From the NCBI RefSeq assembly GCF_907163085.1, contig NZ_CAJQTX010000004.1, positions 328,956-392,955 of the forward strand: DNA of 64,000 bases, given 5' to 3'. Each line of letters begins with the position of its first letter. The stretch's first letter is position 1. This DNA is from Candidatus Accumulibacter sp. ACC003. GTDB lineage: Bacteria > Pseudomonadota > Gammaproteobacteria > Burkholderiales > Rhodocyclaceae. The notes below the pieces were generated by a model. It was not told where the DNA came from. It searched no databases and saw only the letters and a list, made by a program, of their open reading frames with translations. Shown here one piece after another: positions 12,405 to 22,474 of this stretch. The position numbers and the translations under genes are program-made.

Positions 12405-13541
12405 ATGGCAGCACCCGACGACCAGGCATTGATGGCCCACCTCGAACTCGCAGGAATCGTTCAGCGTTACGGATCGCACACCGTCGTCGATGGCGTCGAC
12501 TTTCGCGTCGCAACGGGCAGCATCGCTTGCCTGCTTGGGCCATCCGGCTGTGGCAAGACGACGCTGCTGCGCTGCATTGCCGGTTTCGAGGAGATTGCCG
12601 CCGGTGAGATTCGCGTCGGCGGCCGGAGCGTCAGTCGCGCCGGTTGGCGCGTGCCGCCGGAAAAGAGACAGATTGGCATGGTTTTTCAGGACTATGCCCT
12701 GTTTCCGCACCTCAGCGTCGCCGCCAACGTCGGTTTTGGTCTGGCGGCGCTCGCCGCCGGCGAACGGCGCCAACGCGTCGCCGACTTGCTGAGCACCGTT
12801 GGTCTCGCTGGTCAGGGCGGCAAATATCCGCACGAACTGTCGGGCGGCCAGCAACAACGCGTCGCGTTGGCGCGCGCTCTGGCGCCGCAGCCGCAGCTGC
12901 TGCTGCTCGACGAACCCTTCTCCAACCTCGACGTCGGTCTGCGCGAACGCCTGTCGCTGGAAGTGCGCGAGATCCTGAAGAGTCAGAACATCACCGCCGT
13001 GCTGGTCACCCACGATCAGAACGAAGCCTTTGCCATGGCCGACGAAGTCGGTGTCATGGCCGCCGGAGTCATCCAGCAATGGGATAGCCCGTACCGCTTG
13101 TACCATCAGCCGGCGAACCGTTTTGTCGCCGATTTCGTCGGCCAGGGTGTTTTCGTCGCCGGCATGGTGATTGACGACAGCCGCGTCGAGGTCGAACTGG
13201 GCGTCCTCGAGTCGCGTTTGCCGCTCGAATGCAGCCTGGGTTGCGATGATTGCGGACGCGGTTGTGGCGTCGAAGTGCTGCTGCGCCCCGACGATATCAT
13301 CCACGACGATGCCAGCGAGCTGTTGGCCGAGGTCCGGCACAAGGCCTTTCGCGGTGCCGAGATCCTCTATACGCTGCGCCTCGAGAGCGGTGTCGAAGTC
13401 CTGTCGCTGGTCCCCTCGCATCACAATCACGCGCTTGGCGAGAAAATCGGTATCCGGCTCGACGTCGACCATGTCGTCGCCTTCAAGACGCCGACCCGCG
13501 CTTTTCCGGCGAACGGCCAGGCCATCCAGTTCCAGCGATGA
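12405..13541 (+). CDS. fbpC: Fe(3+) ABC transporter ATP-binding protein (FbpC type)
   Basis: A 378-aa ATPase energising iron import. Walker [10 protein letters not shown] (residues 45-53), Q-loop [10 protein letters not shown], signature [15 protein letters not shown] (146-160), Walker [13 protein letters not shown] (165-176), H-loop VTHDQ. The C-terminal regulatory domain (TOBE-like) carries an unusual cysteine cluster: Cys276, 280, 283 and 287 in [14 protein letters not shown], spacing C-X3-C-X2-C-X3-C. A later Met (12432, [11 protein letters not shown]) could be the true start, since neither has a clear ribosome binding site. Its stop overlaps the aat start (ATGA), so the two are translationally coupled. 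Confidence 0.93.
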
Positions 13542-14245
13542 TTCCCTGGCTCGAAGGCAAGGAACGCTTCCCGGCGCTCGATAGCGCGCTGCTCGAGCCG
13601 AATGGCCTGCTCTGTGCGGGCGGCGACTTGTCGCCGCAACGGCTGCTCGATGCCTACCAGCACGGCATTTTCCCCTGGTATTCGGACGGCGAGCCAATCC
13701 TCTGGTGGAGTCCGGACCCGCGCATGGTCCTCGATCCAGCCGAATTCCGCATCTCGCGCTCCTTGCGCCGCTGCTTGCGCGCCGGCCGCTGGCAGGTGAC
13801 GCTGGACCGTGATTTCCCGGCGGTTGTCCGGGCCTGCGCCGAAGTGCCACGCGCCGGCCAGGACGGCACCTGGATCGTCGGCGACATCCAGCGTGCCTAC
13901 TGGCAGCTGGCGCAGCTGGGATTCGCCCACTCGGTGGAGACCTGGCTTGATGGCCGGCTGGTCGGTGGTCTCTACGGCCTGGCCATCGGCCGCATGTTCT
14001 ACGGCGAATCGATGTTCTCGCGGGTCAGCGACGCCTCCAAGGTCGCCGCGGCGCATCTCGCACGCTTCCTTGAAGGCGAGGGCTACGGCATGATAGATTG
14101 CCAGATGAGTACGCCGCACCTGGCGTCTCTGGGAGCGCGAGAGATTCCTCGCGCTGTTTTCATCGACCGCCTGCATGTCCTGGTCGCGGTCGCCTGGCAG
14201 CCTGGCCGCTGGCCCATCGACGGCGCCAGCCAACCCTGGACCTAG
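13538..14245 (+). CDS. aat: leucyl/phenylalanyl-tRNA--protein transferase
   Basis: Transfers Leu or Phe from aminoacyl-tRNA to N-terminal Lys or Arg of proteins, creating N-degrons for ClpS/ClpAP. 235 aa, usual length. The start overlaps the fbpC stop as ATGA. Family motifs: [59 protein letters not shown] and the late [19 protein letters not shown]. It is followed after 3 bp by bpt, the second N-degron transferase, so the two form a functional pair. Cytoplasmic. Confidence 0.97.
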
Positions 14246-14248
14246 CCA

Positions 14249-15013
14249 ATGGCGCGACTCAACGACTCCGAGCTGCCCTTCTCGCTGCTGCAGTTCTACG
14301 CCACGGCGCCCTACGCCTGCAGCTACCTGGCCGGCGAGCGTGCGCGTTCGCAGGTCGCCGCACCAAGCCACCTGATTGGCACCGAGGTCTACGGCGAACT
14401 CGTTCGCAGCGGCTTCCGACGCAGTGGCCTGTTTACCTACCGTCCGAAGTGCGACGACTGCCAGGCCTGCGTGCCGGTGCGGATCCCGGTCAAGGCTTTT
14501 GCGCCCAACCGCAGCCAGCGCCGTAGCGTCGGCATGCACGCCGCGCTGCAAGCGCGCGAAATGCCGCTGCGCTTCAGCGACGAGCACTATCAGCTCTACC
14601 TGCGCTACCAGTCGGCCCGCCATGCTGGCGGCGGCATGGATCAGGACAGCCACGACCAGTACGCGAATTTCCTGTTGCAGAGTCGCGTGGACACCCGCCT
14701 GGTCGAATTCACCGAGGACGGCGTGCTGCGCATGGTGAGTATCCTGGACGTGCTCAACGACGGCCTGTCTTCGGTCTACACCTTCTACGATCCCGAACTG
14801 CAGTCGGCCAGCTTCGGGACCTACAACATCATCTGGCAGATCGCTCAGTGCGCGGCCAACGGCCTGCCTTATCTGTATCTGGGCTACTGGATCGGCGCCA
14901 GCCGGAAAATGGCTTACAAGGCCAACTTCAAGGCCATCGAGGGGCTGATCGACGGACAGTGGAGCGATCTGCGAGAGCATCTCGCGGCACAGTCCGGCGC
15001 GTTTTCCCGATAG
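14249..15013 (+). CDS. bpt: aspartate/glutamate leucyltransferase (bacterial Ate1-like, Bpt)
   Basis: Adds Leu from Leu-tRNA to N-terminal Asp or Glu, making them ClpS-recognised degrons. 254 aa. The N-terminal Ate domain has the cysteine motif [14 protein letters not shown] (about residues 67-80), and the C-terminal GNAT-like domain has [11 protein letters not shown] and [16 protein letters not shown]. Often annotated arginyl-tRNA--protein transferase; bacterial members of this family are leucyltransferases. Directly downstream of aat (3 bp) and 33 bp upstream of the Hsp70 operon. Proximity links N-degron tagging and a dedicated chaperone set, though co-function is only inferred. Confidence 0.95.
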
Positions 15014-15046: not shown

Positions 15047-17551
15047 ATGTCCAGCAAGAAAAGAACGACCGCTACGCGCTCGGCGCCTGGCGCTGCCCCG
15101 CTTTCCCCCGAGGTGCGCGCCAGACAGGCGCTTGACGCGGCTCACTATCGCGAGGCGATAGAACTCCACAAAGCCCTGCTCAAGCAGGAGCGCCGCGGCG
15201 AGTGGCTCGATGGCCTGGCCGACAGCTATGCGGGTCGCGCCGCAGAGCTGGCCGCCAAGGGGATGTTTCCCGAGGCGCTGGTGGTCTGGCGCAATCGCGC
15301 CACGCTGTGCGCTCGGCCGCTCCTCGAAGGGCCCTACCTCGACTGGCTTCTGCGCGCCGGCGAACACGCCGCCGCGCTGCGCTTGCTGAGCACCACTGAT
15401 GGACTATCGGCGACCGCGGCGGCCGAGCTGGAAACGGCTTTGGCGGCGGTGGTGTTGACGTCGCCCGACAGTGACTTGGCGCTGCTCACTGCCAACAGTC
15501 CCTTGTTGCGCCATCGGGCGAACGCCCTGGCGGCCATCGCCGCTTGCTGCCGGGGTGATCACGCCGAACTCGACGAGCATTTGCGCGCGATACCTTTCCG
15601 TTCGCCGTATCGCGACCTTCGTTTCCTCCTGAAGTCGCTGGCGCTGCTCGGCAGTGACCCGGCGCAGGCTGCCGAGCTGATCGCCCGGGTGGTCGTTGGC
15701 GGTCCTTTTGAAGCGCTCGCCAAAGTCGTTCGCGCCGCCATCGTTCCCGATGGTCGTTGGCTCGCCGCCCTGCACACGCTCGACGAAGACGGGCGGCAAT
15801 TGCTGCTCGATCTCAAGGGCTGCCCGGAAGATGGTCGTTCGCTGCTCTTCGACCTGGCCAGGCTCGGTAGCTTGCCGGCGCCGGCCAAGGTCGTCGAACT
15901 GCTGCTGCGGCGCAAGGGCGGCTTGTCGGCGCCGGCGGCGACTCTTTGCCTACGGCTGTTGCCGTACGCCGACGCACGCATCGCCGCATACCATGGCGCT
16001 TTTGCGGCGCTGGACGAGGGCGCGCGCGTGTGCAGCGCGGCGCTGGCCGCCGAACTTCACAACGATCTGCGACGTGCCGAGGCGCAGTGGCTGCGTGCCG
16101 CCGATTTACTGCCGCCGCTGCCGGCGGCGCTGGTCCTGCGTCATCTGTTTGAACTGATCGTCGGCGACGGCGACCTTGCCAGTGGCGACGAAGAGTGCGT
16201 TTCCTGGCTTTATCGCAGTCTGGCGCTCGACCCCGACGACGTGGCGACCTACCTGAAGCTGAGCAGGATTTACCGCCAGACGCGCGAGCTCAAGGCGGCA
16301 AGGGCAATTGTCGAGCGCGCGCTGGAACGTTTTGCCAACGATGCGGCGGTTCTTCTCGAGGCCGTCGAGGTCGCGCTGGCCGGCAATGCCTTCAAGAAAG
16401 CGGTGGGCCTGGCCAAGCGCGTGCTCGAACTCGACCCGATCAATTCGCGGGTGCGCGCGCTGATCGGGCAGGCGCATCTTTCACACGCGCGCAAACAGAT
16501 CCGCGCGCGCCGACGCGATGCCGCCGCCAAGGAACTCGATCTCGCCGCGCAGTGGCTCACTTCCGCGAGCGAGCGCAGCGTCGTCAAGCTGTTGCGCGGC
16601 CTGAGTGCCGACGATCAGCCGGCGACGGCGCTGCTCTGCGACGCCGCCGGCGAACTCGCTGAGCTCGGCGGCAATCTGCTGGCCGCTTTTCACGTCTTGC
16701 TGGAGTGCGTCCGCGTCGATAGCCCGGCGCCGGCGAGCTTGCGTCGTGCCGGCATCGATCTGTCGGGCAAACCGACGACGCGTGAAGTCGTCGCCGTGGC
16801 GCACGCACTGAACGCGCTCGACGAAGACGGCGCGCGGCTGCTGCCGCGGGTGCTCGACTCGCTGCGCGCGCCGCTACGCCGCGCGGCGGCCAATGACTTC
16901 AGCGAAGCCGAAGCGATTGCCATCTGCGAAGCGCTGCTGCGCCGCGACGAGCGCTCCCTGCTGCAGGCGTTTGCCGACGTCGGCTTGAAGCGCTGGCCGG
17001 CGCGGCCGATCTTCGTCTATTTCACGACCTTCGCCAGGCATGGTTCGCGGGCGTGTTTCGTCATCTCCGATCGTGAAGGAAGGGCTCTCGAGCGCGCCCA
17101 CGACGAGGCACTCGACGCGGGTGATCAACGGACCGCGCTGCGCATCCACGAGCTACTGAGCCCGCCGGCGACCTTCGACGGCGGTGCGCCTGACGACTTT
17201 GGTGGTTTTGGCGGCCTCGAGGACATCTTTACCGACTCTGGCGAGGCGCTGCGCAATCCGCGCACGGCGCTGGAAATGATGCTTCAGGTCGGCGGCGAAG
17301 AGGAAGTGATCCGCACGCTTCGCGAGGGCTTCTCCGACGGCGAGTTCCGGCAATTTGCGCGCGCCGCTGGCGGTAACCGCAAGAGACTGGCGCGCTTGTT
17401 GATCGACGCCGTCGTCGAGAGTATGGAGCAGTCGCTCGGCGCGGCTCCGCTGGACGCCTTGCCGCCACCGGCGCCGCGTCCTCGCCAGCCGCCAAAACCG
17501 CCCGTGCCGCCGGTCCACGACGACCGGCAGAAAGATCTGTTCGATGATTGA
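15047..17551 (+). CDS. large helical/TPR protein of Hsp70 operon
   Basis: An 834-aa protein without signal peptide or membrane segment. Residues about 25-110 hold TPR-like helices (ALDAAHYREAIELHKALLKQ, GMFPEALVVWRNRATLC). A second clear TPR run follows at about residues 390-480 (YRSLALDPDDVATYLKLSRI, AVGLAKRVLELDPINSRVR). The C-terminus has a Gly/Asp-rich block (DDFGGFGGLEDIF), then a conserved-looking helix set, a Pro-rich linker and the tail DDRQKDLFDD. It overlaps the J-like gene by 8 bp and is the first gene of a five-gene operon with GrpE and Hsp70. A role as substrate adaptor or co-chaperone is inferred from context; I do not recognise a named family. Confidence 0.82.
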   Translation: MSSKKRTTATRSAPGAAPLSPEVRARQALDAAHYREAIELHKALLKQERRGEWLDGLADSYAGRAAELAAKGMFPEALVVWRNRATLCARPLLEGPYLDWLLRAGEHAAALRLLSTTDGLSATAAAELETALAAVVLTSPDSDLALLTANSPLLRHRANALAAIAACCRGDHAELDEHLRAIPFRSPYRDLRFLLKSLALLGSDPAQAAELIARVVVGGPFEALAKVVRAAIVPDGRWLAALHTLDEDGRQLLLDLKGCPEDGRSLLFDLARLGSLPAPAKVVELLLRRKGGLSAPAATLCLRLLPYADARIAAYHGAFAALDEGARVCSAALAAELHNDLRRAEAQWLRAADLLPPLPAALVLRHLFELIVGDGDLASGDEECVSWLYRSLALDPDDVATYLKLSRIYRQTRELKAARAIVERALERFANDAAVLLEAVEVALAGNAFKKAVGLAKRVLELDPINSRVRALIGQAHLSHARKQIRARRRDAAAKELDLAAQWLTSASERSVVKLLRGLSADDQPATALLCDAAGELAELGGNLLAAFHVLLECVRVDSPAPASLRRAGIDLSGKPTTREVVAVAHALNALDEDGARLLPRVLDSLRAPLRRAAANDFSEAEAIAICEALLRRDERSLLQAFADVGLKRWPARPIFVYFTTFARHGSRACFVISDREGRALERAHDEALDAGDQRTALRIHELLSPPATFDGGAPDDFGGFGGLEDIFTDSGEALRNPRTALEMMLQVGGEEEVIRTLREGFSDGEFRQFARAAGGNRKRLARLLIDAVVESMEQSLGAAPLDALPPPAPRPRQPPKPPVPPVHDDRQKDLFDD

Positions 17552-17834
17552 CCCCTACCGCGTCCTTGGCGTCGAAGTCGGTGCCAGCGATGAGACGATT
17601 CGCAGCGCTTATCTGACGGCGGTCCGCGAATCGCCGCCCGAACGCGACCGCGCGCGTTTCGAAAGCGTTCGTGCGGCCTACGAAGCGATTTCGGATCAGC
17701 GCCGACGCCTCGCGCACCAGCTCTTCGACTGTTCGCCGCCGACTGTCGATGACGTGCTGAGCGTCATCAGCAGTGATTTCGTTCCGCAGCTGCCCAGCGA
17801 GCGGCGTTTGCTGCGCGTTCTGGGGGCGAAATGA
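17544..17834 (+). CDS. J-domain-like protein lacking HPD
   Basis: A 96-aa protein. Residues 4-60 follow the J-domain pattern: DPYRVLGVEVGASDETIRSA matches helices I-II, and FESVRAAYEAISDQRRRLAH matches helices III-IV. The loop that should carry the invariant His-Pro-Asp reads VRESPPERD, so His is replaced (S-P-P at residues 30-32). HPD is needed in ordinary J proteins to stimulate Hsp70 ATPase. The protein may bind the Hsp70 of this operon without normal stimulation, or use a variant mechanism. It overlaps both neighbours (8 bp upstream, 4 bp with grpE), indicating tight coupling. Confidence 0.85.
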   Translation: MIDPYRVLGVEVGASDETIRSAYLTAVRESPPERDRARFESVRAAYEAISDQRRRLAHQLFDCSPPTVDDVLSVISSDFVPQLPSERRLLRVLGAK

Positions 17835-18565
17835 CGCCAATGATGGCACCGTCGCCAGTCCCGAACGCGTTTTCTGCCGACGATAAAGAGCGTCTGGTCG
17901 ACGAGTTCCGCGCGTGTCTCGACCAGCTCGCACGGCTGGCTGCTGCAGATGACGTGTCGGCCGATGAAGCAGGCGGCGAAACGTTCGACGGCGACCGGCC
18001 GGCGGTCGACCTGGCGACGCTGCTCGGCGAGATGGCGGTGCTCAAGAACGAGCTGCGTCTGCAATCGCGGCAGTTCAAGAATACGCTCGACGAGTTGCGA
18101 TGCTTTGGCGGCGACCTGCGCGCGCACAGCGAGCGGCTGCAACACGAGCTCGAGCGCGCCCGCGAGCAAGCGGCGGCAGCGCAGCGCCAGACCGAACGAC
18201 AGTTTCTGCTGGCGCTGCTCGACCTGCGCGACCGCCTGCAAAGTGGCGTCGACGCCGCGCAGCGGCCGCCACCGTCGCTGCTGGCGCGCGTCTTTCCTGG
18301 CCCGACGCGTCTTGCCGCGAGCCTGGCCGAGGGACAACGGCTCACGCTGCAACGCCTCGACGAGTTGCTCGCCGGCCATCGCGTCCGACCGATGCGGGTG
18401 GTCGGCGAAGCCATCGATCCCGAGCGCATGCGGGTGCTCGGTGTCGAAGCCGCGGCGGCAGCCGACGGCACCGTTCTGCGCGAGGTCCAGCGCGGATTTT
18501 TCCAAGACGGCGAGCTGTTGCGTATCGCCGAAGTCATAGTCAGCAAGAAAGCGAACAGAACATGA
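17831..18565 (+). CDS. GrpE-family nucleotide exchange factor, operon-specific paralogue
   Basis: A 244-aa GrpE-type protein. A long helical, coiled-coil segment (about residues 65-115; LGEMAVLKNELRLQSRQFKN, QHELERAREQAAAAQRQTER) precedes the C-terminal beta domain. That domain shows MRVVGEAIDPERMRVLGVE and VLREVQRGFFQDGELLRIAE, the region that opens the Hsp70 nucleotide cleft. The first 60 residues are acidic and disordered. It overlaps the J-like gene and the Hsp70 gene, each by 4 bp (ATGA). The Ala-rich insert and divergent sequence suggest it is not the housekeeping GrpE, which would normally sit with dnaK/dnaJ. Confidence 0.88.
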   Translation: MTPMMAPSPVPNAFSADDKERLVDEFRACLDQLARLAAADDVSADEAGGETFDGDRPAVDLATLLGEMAVLKNELRLQSRQFKNTLDELRCFGGDLRAHSERLQHELERAREQAAAAQRQTERQFLLALLDLRDRLQSGVDAAQRPPPSLLARVFPGPTRLAASLAEGQRLTLQRLDELLAGHRVRPMRVVGEAIDPERMRVLGVEAAAAADGTVLREVQRGFFQDGELLRIAEVIVSKKANRT

Positions 18566-20331
18566 TAGAAACGATCATCGGCATCGATCTCGGGACCACC
18601 AACTCCGAGGTGGCAATCGTCCGTGACGGGCGCGTCGAGGTCATCGAGGTGGCGCCTGGTATCCGTATTCTCCCTTCGGTCGTCGGCGTCGCCGACGACG
18701 GCAGCCTGCTGATCGGCGAAGCGGCGCGTAACCAGTACGTTCTGCATCCCGAGCGCAGTGTGCGCTCGATCAAGCGCCGGATGGGCGAGTTCACGGCGGT
18801 GCACATGGCCGGCAAGGACTACAGCCCGCAGGAGATTTCGGCGATGATCCTGCGCCGGCTGCGCGAGATTGCCGAGGCGCATATCGGCGCGACGGTGAGC
18901 AAAGCGGTGATTACCGTGCCGGCGTATTTCTCCGACGCGCAGCGGCAGGCGACGCGCGAGGCCGGCGAGATTGCCGGCCTCGAGGTGATGCGGATCATCA
19001 ACGAACCGACCGCTGCCGCGCTGGCTTACGAAAGCTGCCACCACGGCGCGCACAAGGCGCTGGTCTATGACCTTGGCGGTGGCACTTTCGACGTCTCGGT
19101 GGTCAATCTGGAAAGCGCCGTCGTCGAGGTGCTCGCCAGTCACGGCAACAATCACCTGGGCGGCGACGATTTCGACCTGCAACTCGTCGCCTTTGCCGTG
19201 GCGCACCTGCAAACCAAGCACGACATCGATGTCCGCGACAACGCGGTGGCCATGGCTCGCCTGCAGCGCGCCGCTGAAGCGGCCAAGATCACGCTGTCGG
19301 ACCAGCCCTACGCGACCTTGTCCGAGGAGTTTCTGGCCGAAAAGGACGGTGTGCCGGTGCACCTCTCGCTTGAGATCGCGCGCGATGAATACGAGGAGAT
19401 GATCGAACCATTTGTTGCCGAAACGATAGAGGCGGTGCACGTGGCGTTGAGTGGCGCCGGTCTGACGGTCAGCGCGATCAACGAAATCCTGCTCGTCGGC
19501 GGCGCGACGCGAACGCCGCTGGTGCAGCGGCGACTAGAGCAGGAGCTCGGGCTGCAGCCGCGTGCGGACGTCGATCCCGACCTTTGCGTGGCCATGGGCG
19601 CGGCCATCCAGGCAGCGGTAATCGCCGGCGGGCAGGCGCCGACGGTGCTCGTCGACGTCACGCCCTATACCTTCGGGACCAGCGCCATGGGTTCGTTCAA
19701 CGGTGACATCTATCCGTATTGCTTTGTGCCGCTGATCCGCAAGAACACGCCGATTCCCGTTTCCCGTAGCGAAGCTTTCTGTACCGTTTACGACGGCCAG
19801 TCCAGGGTAGATGTCAATGTCTATCAGGGGGAAGACCCGGACGCGCTGAACAACATCGAGATCGGGCGCTTCACCATCGCCGGATTACGCGATGCCCCCG
19901 CAGGCAACCCGCTGATCACCACCTTTTCGCTCGACGTGAACGGCATTCTGCAGGTGACTTCGCGCGAGAAGGAAAGCGGTCTGGTGCACTCGATCACCAT
20001 CGACAACGCCATCGGCCGTTTTGCCGGCGACAAGTTGCTCGCTGCCCGCGAGCGCATCGACGAACTGTTTGACGATCAGGACGCGGGGCCAGAGCGCGCC
20101 GGCGCAGAAGGCGGTGGGTCTGGCGATGGCGTCGACGGCCGGCGCCTGCGCATCGAGGCGAGTGCGCTGATCGAGAAAGCCGAACGCCTGTTGGCCAGCG
20201 CGGGTGCCGAAGACGCGGAAGATTTGGTGAATGGCATCGAGGCCGTCAAGGATCTCCTGGCCGGCAGCGAAGGCGAACTCAAGTCGGCGATGGACGCGCT
20301 TGCCGATCTGCTCTACTACCTCGATGCCTGA
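18562..20331 (+). CDS. Hsp70-family chaperone (DnaK paralogue)
   Basis: A 589-aa Hsp70, about 50 residues shorter than typical DnaK. The start at 18562 overlaps the grpE stop. Nucleotide-binding domain: phosphate 1 IGIDLGTTNSEVAI (residues 6-19), phosphate 2 VYDLGGGTFDVSVV (about 168-181), adenosine motif ILLVGGATRTPLVQ (about 310-323). Substrate-binding domain: QGEDPDALNNIEIG and FSLDVNGILQVTSREKESG (about 420-475). The lid is short and ends LADLLYYLDA, with no EEVD-like tail. A Gly/Asp-rich linker (about residues 510-530) precedes it. It works with the GrpE, J-like and helical proteins of the same operon. General DnaK function is possible, but the partners suggest a specialised system. Confidence 0.95.
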   Translation: MIETIIGIDLGTTNSEVAIVRDGRVEVIEVAPGIRILPSVVGVADDGSLLIGEAARNQYVLHPERSVRSIKRRMGEFTAVHMAGKDYSPQEISAMILRRLREIAEAHIGATVSKAVITVPAYFSDAQRQATREAGEIAGLEVMRIINEPTAAALAYESCHHGAHKALVYDLGGGTFDVSVVNLESAVVEVLASHGNNHLGGDDFDLQLVAFAVAHLQTKHDIDVRDNAVAMARLQRAAEAAKITLSDQPYATLSEEFLAEKDGVPVHLSLEIARDEYEEMIEPFVAETIEAVHVALSGAGLTVSAINEILLVGGATRTPLVQRRLEQELGLQPRADVDPDLCVAMGAAIQAAVIAGGQAPTVLVDVTPYTFGTSAMGSFNGDIYPYCFVPLIRKNTPIPVSRSEAFCTVYDGQSRVDVNVYQGEDPDALNNIEIGRFTIAGLRDAPAGNPLITTFSLDVNGILQVTSREKESGLVHSITIDNAIGRFAGDKLLAARERIDELFDDQDAGPERAGAEGGGSGDGVDGRRLRIEASALIEKAERLLASAGAEDAEDLVNGIEAVKDLLAGSEGELKSAMDALADLLYYLDA

Positions 20332-20707
20332 AGTTCTCGACCGCTGTCAGGCTTGTCGCGCGCGCCTGGCCGAGAATGCCGTCTGTCCGCGTTGTGGCTG
20401 TGATTTCTCGCTGGCGCGGCAGGCGCTGGTGCAGGGCCGCTGCCGCCTCGAGCAAGCGCTGCGTTCGCTGGCAAGCGGCGACCGGGCGGCGGCCCGGGCG
20501 CACGTCGATGCTTCGCTGGCGCTGAACAGACTGCGGATGGCCGACGCGCTCAAGAGCTTCCTGGCCGATGAGCGGCAGTCGACCAGAACCGCGCCCGCGG
20601 AGGACTCTCGGGTGTCAGTTGTGCCACCGCGCGGTGGCGTAACCGAGCCAGCCCGCCACCGGCATAGTGAATTGCTGGAACTGGATTGCTCGGGGCTTCA
20701 GGAATAA
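20324..20707 (+). CDS. zinc-ribbon protein of Hsp70 operon
   Basis: A 127-aa protein starting at ATG 20324, overlapping the Hsp70 stop by 8 bp. Two CxxC knuckles, Cys8/Cys11 and Cys21/Cys24 (RCQACRARL, VCPRCGCDF), form a zinc ribbon. A helical pair follows (LEQALRSLASGDRAAARAHV, LNRLRMADALKSFLADE) resembling one TPR-like repeat, then a disordered tail. Zinc ribbons also occur in DnaJ, where they help substrate binding. The J-like protein here has none, so this protein may supply that function; this is inference. It is the last gene of the operon. No named family recognised. Confidence 0.82.
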   Translation: MPEVLDRCQACRARLAENAVCPRCGCDFSLARQALVQGRCRLEQALRSLASGDRAAARAHVDASLALNRLRMADALKSFLADERQSTRTAPAEDSRVSVVPPRGGVTEPARHRHSELLELDCSGLQE

Positions 20708-20755: not shown

Positions 20756-22474
20756 TCAGCCGCTTGTCGCTACCAGCGTAGCACCGGCAGGTGGTGCGCT
20801 TTCATTGGCCGGTGCTTCTTCCCTGGTCAGCACGTCGAGCAGCGTGGCGATTCCCTCGGCTGCATGTTCGAGCGCTTTCAGATCTTCGGCGGTGACGCTG
20901 CCGGACGCCGACTGCAGTCGCTGCGAGACCTCGAGTACGCGTTCGCCATGGCGCAGCAGGCGGCCACGAATGGCGTTGAGTTGCTGCAGCTTGGCAATTG
21001 TCGCCCGGCGCAGATCCTGCAACGCCTCGTCTTTCTCTTCGTTGCTGCTGGCGCGCAGCAGCTCGCGGCGGGCGCTTAGCTCGTCCATCGATTCCTTCCA
21101 CCAGAGCAGGAAGGTCGTTCGGTGATCGACCAGTGCGTTCAGCGATTCGCCCATCGAGTTGATTTCATCACGGCCACCGCGGTACGTCGGGACACGGCTG
21201 CTCGGCCTGCCGTAGGCCAGGCTGTCGAGCAGGCCGGCCATTTGCCGGACCGGGCGGACGATGCGCGCGGTGATCGCCAGCGCCAAGACGATCGCCAGCG
21301 CGATGGCGCCGCCCATGACGATCAGGCTCCAGTGGGCGCTCTCCTGCGAGGAGGCGTTTATTTCAGCGACCCGGCTGGCCATCATCTGGTTGGCCTGATC
21401 GACGTTCTGCTTGACCAGCGGCGCGACGCGATCAGCGGCTGCGTTCATCTCGCGGGTCAGCCTCGTGATGCTTGAACTCTGTGCCACCAGCGCCAGGAAG
21501 TCTCGCTCGTACGCTTGCAGCAGGTCGATCAGCAGCGCCTTGTCGGCCGCGGCGATCGCCGAGGCGGCGATCTGCGAGCGAATCTTCTCGGCGATGTCGA
21601 CGACCATCGGCGGGTAGGATTCGTCGCCGCGCAGCAGGAAGTCCTTTTCGCGCCGCCGCAGTTGCAGCACGCTGGCCTCCAGGTTGGCGACGCGATAAGC
21701 GTTGAGCGTGGCCTCGATGTGGTGCGCCGCATCACGGAATGGCCCTTTGCCGCCATCGATATTGCCGGACTTGAGCGCACGCTCGGCGTAGGGCTCGAAG
21801 GTCCTGGCATAGGTTGTCAGATCGACCAGCAACTGTTGCTTGACGGTACTCTGCAGTTCCGAAGTCTCGACCAGTTGACGCAACTCGGCGAGCAGCTGGC
21901 GAACGCGTTCGCCGTACGCGGGATCCTGTCGCAAGGCCAGGTCTTTCTCGCTGCGGCGGATCTGCAAGAGCAGCGTGTACAGGCGGTCGACGTTGTAGCC
22001 CGCCGAAAGCGCCTGCAGCCGATGGACCTTGTCGCGGAAAGCGCCCTGCAGCCCGGAGTCCTCGTTCAGACCCATCACCCGCCAGGCCTTGGCGACCGCT
22101 GCGAAGTTCGTCTGGTAGGAACTCACCAGCCCCTGCAGGGCGTCTGCCGTTTGCTGCGAGTCGTGATCGACGGCAGCCAGCGCTGACACCTTGCCGAGCA
22201 GCGTTTGCAGACGCTGCTCGGTCGCCTCGGCATCTTCCTGCCGGTGCTCGATCAGAAAGCGTTTTTCGGCATCGCGAACGGCAGCGAGCTCGATCTCGAT
22301 TTCGAGTGCCAGCGACTTCCGCAGTTCGAAGCTCTGCAACTGCTGGTAGTCGCCGAGCACCGACTGCAGCGTCTGGTGGTACTGCCAGACGACGCCGACG
22401 AACAGCAGGCCGACGACGGCGAAGCCGATGCCAATCTTCTCGCCGATGCGTAGTTTGCTGAAAAACTTGTCCAC
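20756..22474 (-). CDS. HBM-type sensory membrane protein without recognisable output domain
   Basis: A 572-aa protein with GTG start (AGGAGG 5-6 bases upstream). A transmembrane helix (IGIGFAVVGLLFVGVVWQYH) precedes a large periplasmic all-helical region (about residues 35-375) of helical bimodular type, with paired KRFLIEHRQED and KDFLLRGDESYPPMV blocks. A second transmembrane helix (LIVMGGAIALAIVLALAITA) and a HAMP domain (RIVRPVRQMAGLLDSLAYGR) follow. The cytoplasmic part (about 120 residues) is helical but lacks the methyl-accepting hairpin tip, histidine kinase and GGDEF domains. It probably relays a ligand signal to a partner. HBM receptors often bind organic acids such as malate or succinate, but the ligand here is unknown. 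Confidence 0.82.
   Translation of the reverse strand: MDKFFSKLRIGEKIGIGFAVVGLLFVGVVWQYHQTLQSVLGDYQQLQSFELRKSLALEIEIELAAVRDAEKRFLIEHRQEDAEATEQRLQTLLGKVSALAAVDHDSQQTADALQGLVSSYQTNFAAVAKAWRVMGLNEDSGLQGAFRDKVHRLQALSAGYNVDRLYTLLLQIRRSEKDLALRQDPAYGERVRQLLAELRQLVETSELQSTVKQQLLVDLTTYARTFEPYAERALKSGNIDGGKGPFRDAAHHIEATLNAYRVANLEASVLQLRRREKDFLLRGDESYPPMVVDIAEKIRSQIAASAIAAADKALLIDLLQAYERDFLALVAQSSSITRLTREMNAAADRVAPLVKQNVDQANQMMASRVAEINASSQESAHWSLIVMGGAIALAIVLALAITARIVRPVRQMAGLLDSLAYGRPSSRVPTYRGGRDEINSMGESLNALVDHRTTFLLWWKESMDELSARRELLRASSNEEKDEALQDLRRATIAKLQQLNAIRGRLLRHGERVLEVSQRLQSASGSVTAEDLKALEHAAEGIATLLDVLTREEAPANESAPPAGATLVATSG

Follow-up and report, generated by a model that had tools for sequence, protein, structure and literature searches.

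The window analysed here, 64,000 nucleotides in its entirety, comes from contig C4 of a Candidatus Accumulibacter genome and carries, at positions 15047-20707 of the plus strand, five genes encoding a TPR protein, a J-like protein, a GrpE-like protein, an Hsp70, and a zinc-ribbon protein, in that order. Successive genes overlap by 8, 4, 4, and 8 base pairs (bp), in keeping with the 4-8 bp that a first-pass annotation of the sequence had recorded. That annotation took the overlaps to argue for a stoichiometric complex, an argument that was not borne out: short gene overlaps are usual in operons, and these are not kept in a second bacterial class that carries the genes.

The TPR gene (15047-17551) encodes a putative scaffold of 834 residues in which every Pfam TPR repeat falls below the cut-off. 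Its structural model is all-helical (mean predicted local distance difference test [pLDDT] score, 83.9), with consecutive helices across residues 21-705, and takes the form of one helical solenoid that gives way to a small helical segment near the C-terminus and then to a flexible tail. The C-terminal segment comprises three helices in the model (residues 738-796; 17258-17434) behind a low-confidence linker, and the tail ends in DDRQKDLFDD (17519-17548), with a related RQLxxDFD-like end in 10 of 12 proteins of the other class. The 50 matches listed from a Foldseek search with this model were TPR solenoids of eukaryotic complexes with template modelling scores of 0.12-0.24 by query length, and we read them as identifying a fold class and not a relative.

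The next three genes encode the recognizable parts of a chaperone system. The J-like protein (17544-17834; 96 residues) matches Pfam DnaJ at 5.8e-9 (36.4 bits against a cut-off of 27.8), and the GrpE-like protein (17831-18565; 244 residues), a putative nucleotide exchange factor, matches Pfam GrpE at 1e-17 (64.8 bits against 25.8). The Hsp70 (18562-20331; 589 residues), which has DnaK-type ATPase residues, the GrpE loop, and a short lid, matches positions 1-501 of 599 of the Pfam HSP70 profile at 5.5e-147, above the cut-off; a longer Hsp70 reading frame from 18100 is a mere upstream extension of the open frame. The first-pass annotation had described the last product as a detached zinc ribbon, and this description stood: the protein (20324-20707; 127 residues) reaches the Pfam zinc-ribbon model only below threshold, yet its five cysteines C8, C11, C21, C24, and C26 (20345-20401) are invariant in all 10 Accumulibacter proteins, and by eye a TPR-like stretch lies behind the ribbon. 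The claim that the set has its own GrpE was likewise upheld, given that the ordinary, housekeeping GrpE-DnaK pair is separate and lies elsewhere in the same genome (contig C2), distinct from the GrpE of the locus.

Distribution of the five genes

To gauge conservation among relatives, we searched the GrpE-like protein against 61 genomes, comprising 28 members of the genus and 33 of the same family or order. A close copy occurs in 10 of the 28 genus members, the source genome included, the other nine proteins being 68-78% identical to it; in the remaining 18 genus members and in the 33 family or order genomes, GrpE matches were weak (best E, 1e-5) or absent. Every one of the nine other Accumulibacter loci fetched holds all five genes in identical order, and the 8-bp overlap is found at both the TPR/J and the Hsp70/zinc-ribbon junction in 10/10 loci. 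Among the nine, the TPR gene of L037 is frameshifted and was left out of the TPR alignments, that of L038 is truncated by a contig end, and the GrpE rows of L036 and L038 include a few residues ahead of the likely start. A contig scan returned 17 loci, seven from Accumulibacter and 10 from Pseudobutyrivibrio and two other genera. Ratios of nonsynonymous to synonymous substitution (dN/dS), estimated from three close pairs, are 0.15-0.38 for four genes and 0.27-0.75 for the zinc-ribbon gene; by this measure the four genes are clearly under purifying selection and the zinc-ribbon gene is less so.

The flanks of the locus mark the corresponding empty site in relatives. Upstream (13250-15013) lie aat and bpt, which encode the Leu/Phe-tRNA and Arg-tRNA protein transferases, enzymes of the N-degron pathway, and downstream (20756-22474), on the opposite strand, lies a gene with a sub-threshold HAMP match. 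We probed 12 Accumulibacter genomes without a match to the special GrpE: bpt is present in all of them, and in nine the HAMP-type gene stands directly after bpt, with no remnant of the five genes. Two show neither arrangement, and in G008 (L136) the start of a TPR gene follows bpt at a contig end. The absence from G008 is thus an assembly gap in a genome that probably has the cassette, which makes 10 of 28 a lower bound. Among the nine Accumulibacter loci with upstream sequence, aat-bpt is found upstream in four and is absent from five; L038 is cut by the contig end. On these grounds the five genes appear to come, go, and sit at differing sites as one unit, or cassette. Heat-shock promoter patterns, sought in front of 24 loci (one without upstream sequence), matched once; they also missed the genome's own grpE locus, which leaves this result uninformative.

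Beyond the genus, a TPR profile searched against 398 genomes of the phylum matched in 34, and the strong matches outside the source genome all belonged to one other class. This class is probably Magnetococcia, since MamA scores above its cut-off in 37 of its 48 genomes and in 0 of 14 control genomes. The TPR profile matches in 26 of the 48 genomes at E <= 1e-10 and in 13 at E <= 4e-240; a further strong genome, G082, has its gene split over two contigs, for a total of 14. The special GrpE occurs in 15 of the 48 (E <= 1e-69; the next GrpE matches are at 3e-21 or weaker), and these include all 14 strong-TPR genomes, the 15th being one in which the contig begins inside the TPR gene. We fetched 20 loci from this class, 19 with strong TPR matches and one (L116) with a weak match. 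With the first profiles, all five genes were found in order at 12, TPR and J genes only at three, and a TPR gene only at five. Three additional loci also carry the J, Hsp70, and zinc-ribbon genes, which places the special GrpE inside the cluster in 15/15. Intergenic gaps at the 12 loci run from -104 to +195 bp; many are only a few bases away from zero, and the sizes depend on the start codons that we chose.

A third group of relatives emerged from plasmids. The Hsp70 matched in 295 of 72,556 plasmid records, the top four being one Nostoc and three Acaryochloris plasmids. The plasmid of Nostoc sp. UHCC 0302 carries genes for a TPR protein, a DnaJ-domain protein, GrpE, Hsp70, and a fifth protein, in order; the fifth combines two CxxC pairs with Pfam TPR repeats and is a weak match to the zinc-ribbon profile (30% identity over 54 columns; probability, 39%). 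The window TPR protein found no match among the plasmids, and the Nostoc TPR protein found itself and the three Acaryochloris plasmids. We count the cyanobacteria as members because of their gene order and their place in the Hsp70 tree. The three plasmids of Acaryochloris sp. Moss Beach (L124, L125, and L126) each carry TPR, J, GrpE, and Hsp70 genes in that order, with several frames broken by decay or sequencing error.

Whether the genes are conserved together elsewhere was one of the points on which the first-pass annotation had staked its proposal. They are: the five families occur together at 9/9 Accumulibacter loci, at 12/20 loci of the other class, and on the Nostoc plasmid.

The Hsp70, its GrpE loop, and the J motif

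We aligned the Hsp70 with DnaK, HscA, and HscC of Escherichia coli and counted residues in six Accumulibacter, 12 other-class, and one Nostoc sequence; counts out of 18 refer to the first two groups. All seven ATPase-site residues included in the count are conserved in every one of these sequences. The positions at which DnaK receives its J protein (R167, Q378, L391, D393, and P419) are retained in 18/18, the R167 equivalent, partner of the HPD aspartate, being R144 by alignment (codon at 18991-18993). The GrpE loop is present, with P293 and H295 in 18/18. The protein lacks a counterpart of DnaK residues 76-101 and carries an insertion in loop L1,2. Of the salt bridges of DnaK, K55-E267 may remain as an arginine-glutamate pair (with E267 retained and R at the K55 position in 14/18), and of the lid latch pairs D431-H544 and R467-D540, residues H544, R467, and D540 are not kept, in a part of the alignment that is less sure.

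The lid is short, as the first-pass annotation had it, and there is no EEVD-like tail; the C-terminus, however, is not merely missing. The Hsp70 model (mean pLDDT, 84.6) has a helix at residues 489-507, a low-confidence loop, and three helices across residues 524-588, ending one residue before the terminus. In place of a disordered EEVD-like tail, the protein has the conserved hydrophobic end LADLLYYLDA (20299-20328), modelled within a helix at 570-588, and the other-class proteins end in LSEILFYLET and similar sequences.

The Hsp70 scores beneath both NCBIfam DnaK cut-offs (531.4 of 822.55 bits for TIGR02350 and 541.4 of 648 for PRK00290). In a tree from which E. coli HscC, three diverged Hsp70s of the source genome, and one of two near-identical Rhodococcus rows were dropped after a first tree had shown long branches, 20 five-gene Hsp70s are separated from 12 DnaK/HscA rows by one 100/100 branch. 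When HscC and the other long branches were included, HscC and Nostoc took no firm place. Both trees hold 6 of the 10 Accumulibacter and 12 of the 15 other-class Hsp70s. A separate HscA-like gene of the source genome groups with E. coli HscA. The three diverged Hsp70-like genes (L005, L006, and L007) lie on contigs C1 and C7, the matches of two of them about 1.25 kb apart.

The most distinctive feature of the system is found in its J domain. The J-like proteins of the nine other Accumulibacter are 67-81% identical to that of the window, and in all 10 the HPD motif is replaced by PPE (residues 31-33; 17634-17642) within the identical letters SPPERD. At the 15/15 complete loci of the other class, the site reads PPE, PPD, SPE, or SPD ([PS]P[DE]). 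The motif histidine is gone and the proline and acid are retained, therefore, in 25/25 J proteins of complete proteobacterial loci. According to excerpts of PMC8215388, the HPD motif makes the contacts H33-L391, P34-P419, and D35-R167 plus Q378, and its histidine is considered essential. The first-pass annotation called the J protein HPD-less, and the histidine is indeed absent; the implied dead J domain is unsupported, given that the proline and acid are kept in 25 J proteins and the Hsp70 surface in 18. The retained pair, together with the surface that would receive it, suggests a contact that still works in altered form. In Nostoc and Acaryochloris the J motif reads PAH by eye and the R167 position of the Hsp70 is Q, to all appearances a matching change.

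Seven fetched loci of the other class hold a TPR gene without an Hsp70 gene of the cassette kind, and they separate the two ends of the J protein. At three (L104, L108, and L110) the J gene carries PQE, SKT, or SKA at the motif. At the other four (L111, L113, L114, and L115) a small frame after the TPR gene encodes the C-terminal half of the J protein only, covering profile positions 49-52 to 102 of 106 at E values of 6e-8 to 1e-4. TPR paralogs without Hsp70 retain the RQLEMDL/RQLELEL tail, and five of the seven loci lie in genomes without a special GrpE match. By this pattern the J tail tracks the TPR protein and the motif tracks the Hsp70, from which we read the tail as a probable binder of the TPR protein and the J domain as a probable binder of the Hsp70. 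The Hsp70-less loci look like a second TPR lineage of the class, one losing its J domain; at L113 and L114 the next frames resemble, by eye, a potassium transporter.

Known Hsp70 systems

The comparisons in this section rest, where a paper is cited, on excerpts of that paper. With DnaK-DnaJ-GrpE (PMC8215388) the locus shares an Hsp70 with ATPase residues, a GrpE-like factor, and a DnaJ-domain protein; here, however, the J domain stands alone and lacks HPD, the TPR scaffold and zinc ribbon are genes of their own, and the Hsp70 is short-lidded, tailless, and below the DnaK cut-offs. HscC, which works with DjlB and DjlC in E. coli, is likewise a short Hsp70 with the 76-101 deletion and the L1,2 insertion (PMC8215388). 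Its GrpE loop (290-295) is deleted, whereas the Hsp70 described here keeps the loop and is accompanied by its own GrpE; the E. coli djlB and djlC genes, moreover, sit among Sel1 and DUF1266 genes, and the J gene here differs. HscA-HscB also pairs a specialised Hsp70 with its own J protein, but HscA too has lost the loop at 290-295 (PMC8215388) that is kept here. Judged from sequence, the tested features exclude membership in DnaK, HscA, and, on the GrpE loop, HscC, and the first-pass view that the layout is unlike all three is supported by the cut-offs, the GrpE loop, and the aligned residues.

More specialised systems share other parts of the arrangement. MxDnaK2/SglK (MXAN_6671) and GrpS (MXAN_6672) of Myxococcus xanthus are a second Hsp70 and its own GrpE in one operon (PMC11019930), and the StkA locus of the same species places a specialised Hsp70 in a small gene cluster (PMC4319316). 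Neither is the same system: the excerpted description of SglK-GrpS is of a bicistronic unit without a J neighbour (PMC11019930), where here J, TPR, and zinc-ribbon genes adjoin, a distinction drawn from description and not from sequence, and the genes downstream of stkA encode SCP2-like and PhaE-like proteins (PMC4319316). DnaK1, DnaJ3, and GrpE of Nostoc punctiforme are a case of a specialised cyanobacterial Hsp70 that works with a particular J protein (PMC9239167), but we rejected DnaK1 as an equivalent, as it uses the single GrpE of that genome and dnaK1 lies between grpE and dnaJ11 (PMC9239167). A Rhodococcus plasmid Hsp70 was set aside for its gene order, dnaK-grpE-dnaJ.

We found no account of the five-gene unit among the papers listed from the open-licence PubMed Central literature, a search that left subscription papers and preprints outside its scope, and published J-protein classifications may hold the family. 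Within that literature the suggestion that the system is previously undescribed holds. As far as could be seen, the parts are known, and the combination and the J motif are new.

A candidate machine with a split J protein

We lean, by a little, toward the view that the five genes encode a dedicated Hsp70 machine with a split J protein, inherited as a cassette and apart from the housekeeping machine. The sequences show that the unit exists and is conserved, that at one site it is present or absent as a whole, that the ATPase residues, the GrpE loop, and the docking site are kept, and that the J motif is linked to an Hsp70 gene at the locus; physical contacts, stimulation of the ATPase, and client binding are what we infer. 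In such a machine, the TPR protein would serve as a long helical scaffold, either holding clients or positioning the machine. The J-like protein would be its J subunit, with a C-terminal tail that binds the TPR protein and a J domain that docks, through [PS]P[DE], at the usual site of its partner Hsp70, such that the TPR and J-like proteins together would amount to one J protein split across two genes. The GrpE-like protein would reset the Hsp70 through nucleotide exchange, and the zinc-ribbon protein would be an accessory, perhaps acting at the hydrophobic Hsp70 C-terminus. We propose more tentatively, with somewhat more doubt than confidence, that this is a mobile, self-contained Hsp70 machine common to Accumulibacter, Magnetococcia, and some cyanobacteria, in which the J protein is split and the HPD histidine is dispensed with, the contact being made through the proline and the acid-R167 pair.

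Several observations weigh against these proposals. The loci are related, and counts of genomes and loci are therefore not counts of independent events. The charged contacts of the J domain look weak: the DnaJ K26 position is L in the J-like proteins (by eye), and the Hsp70 has N or R in place of E206 and lacks D211. The cleft bridge R56-E264 is lost in 18/18, R56 being N and E264 being R or H, because of which dependence on GrpE may differ from that of DnaK. The role of the J tail as a TPR binder is read from gene loss and not from a structure. Two of the Hsp70-less loci (L108 and L111) sit in genomes that also hold a complete locus, and for this reason their J parts could still meet an Hsp70; L108, moreover, still has PQE, acid included. 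On the cyanobacterial side, the matching change of J motif and R167 position is known from one lineage only, the window TPR protein matches that of Nostoc weakly (95 N-terminal columns; probability, 11%), and a search of Acaryochloris L124 and L125, the two plasmids that it covered, turned up no fifth gene.

In a rival reading, which we consider unlikely but the strongest of the alternatives, the J-like protein would be a structural adaptor without effect on the ATPase, its one task being to tether the Hsp70 to the TPR scaffold while a housekeeping J protein with HPD drives the ATPase. Pam16 of mitochondria is a J-like adaptor of this kind that does not stimulate the ATPase. The loss of the motif histidine from all 25 proteobacterial J proteins of complete loci fits an adaptor, as do the apparently reduced charges of helix II (by eye) and the standing of that histidine as essential in excerpts of PMC8215388. 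A pure anchor, however, need not keep the proline and acid (25/25) or the Hsp70 residues that receive them (18/18), and departures from [PS]P[DE] within the two proteobacterial groups are confined to Hsp70-less loci.

A regulatory or conflict-type complex, with the Hsp70 as its switch, is improbable by our reckoning. The patchy distribution of the cassette, with the five genes there or missing together, is often seen in defence genes too. Excerpts of PMC7159879 describe GAP1-N2 neighbourhoods in which Hsp70 and GrpE are found together with a DnaJ- or TPR-bearing protein; that theme, however, includes GTPases and FNIII proteins and is mostly one of actinobacteria and firmicutes. The eight window neighbours tested matched no GTPase or FNIII model, the neighbours at other loci having only been clustered, without annotation. 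Each neighbour family is limited to at most four of the 24 loci, and the four families common to an Accumulibacter and another locus lie at scattered places. None of the five proteins matches any PADLOC model, and the GrpE profile found no relative in viral contigs. Least credible is an ordinary decaying duplicate of the dnaK operon, which would suit the presence of DnaK and GrpE elsewhere in the genome and the patchiness of the special GrpE within the genus but not the low dN/dS of four of the five genes, the own Hsp70 clade extending to other lineages, or the TPR and zinc-ribbon genes, which to our knowledge are not parts of dnaK operons.

A dedicated machine with a split J protein would matter in three respects. 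The HPD histidine has been held essential, and a lineage that carries proline or serine in its place, yet keeps the acid and the Hsp70 partner, would offer a natural experiment on what the motif has to do. A split J protein, if real, would illustrate how a set of genes inherited together can commit an Hsp70 to a single task. Finally, one cassette that joins a TPR scaffold to an Hsp70, a J protein, and a GrpE of its own would bring the clients of such a machine within reach of pull-down.

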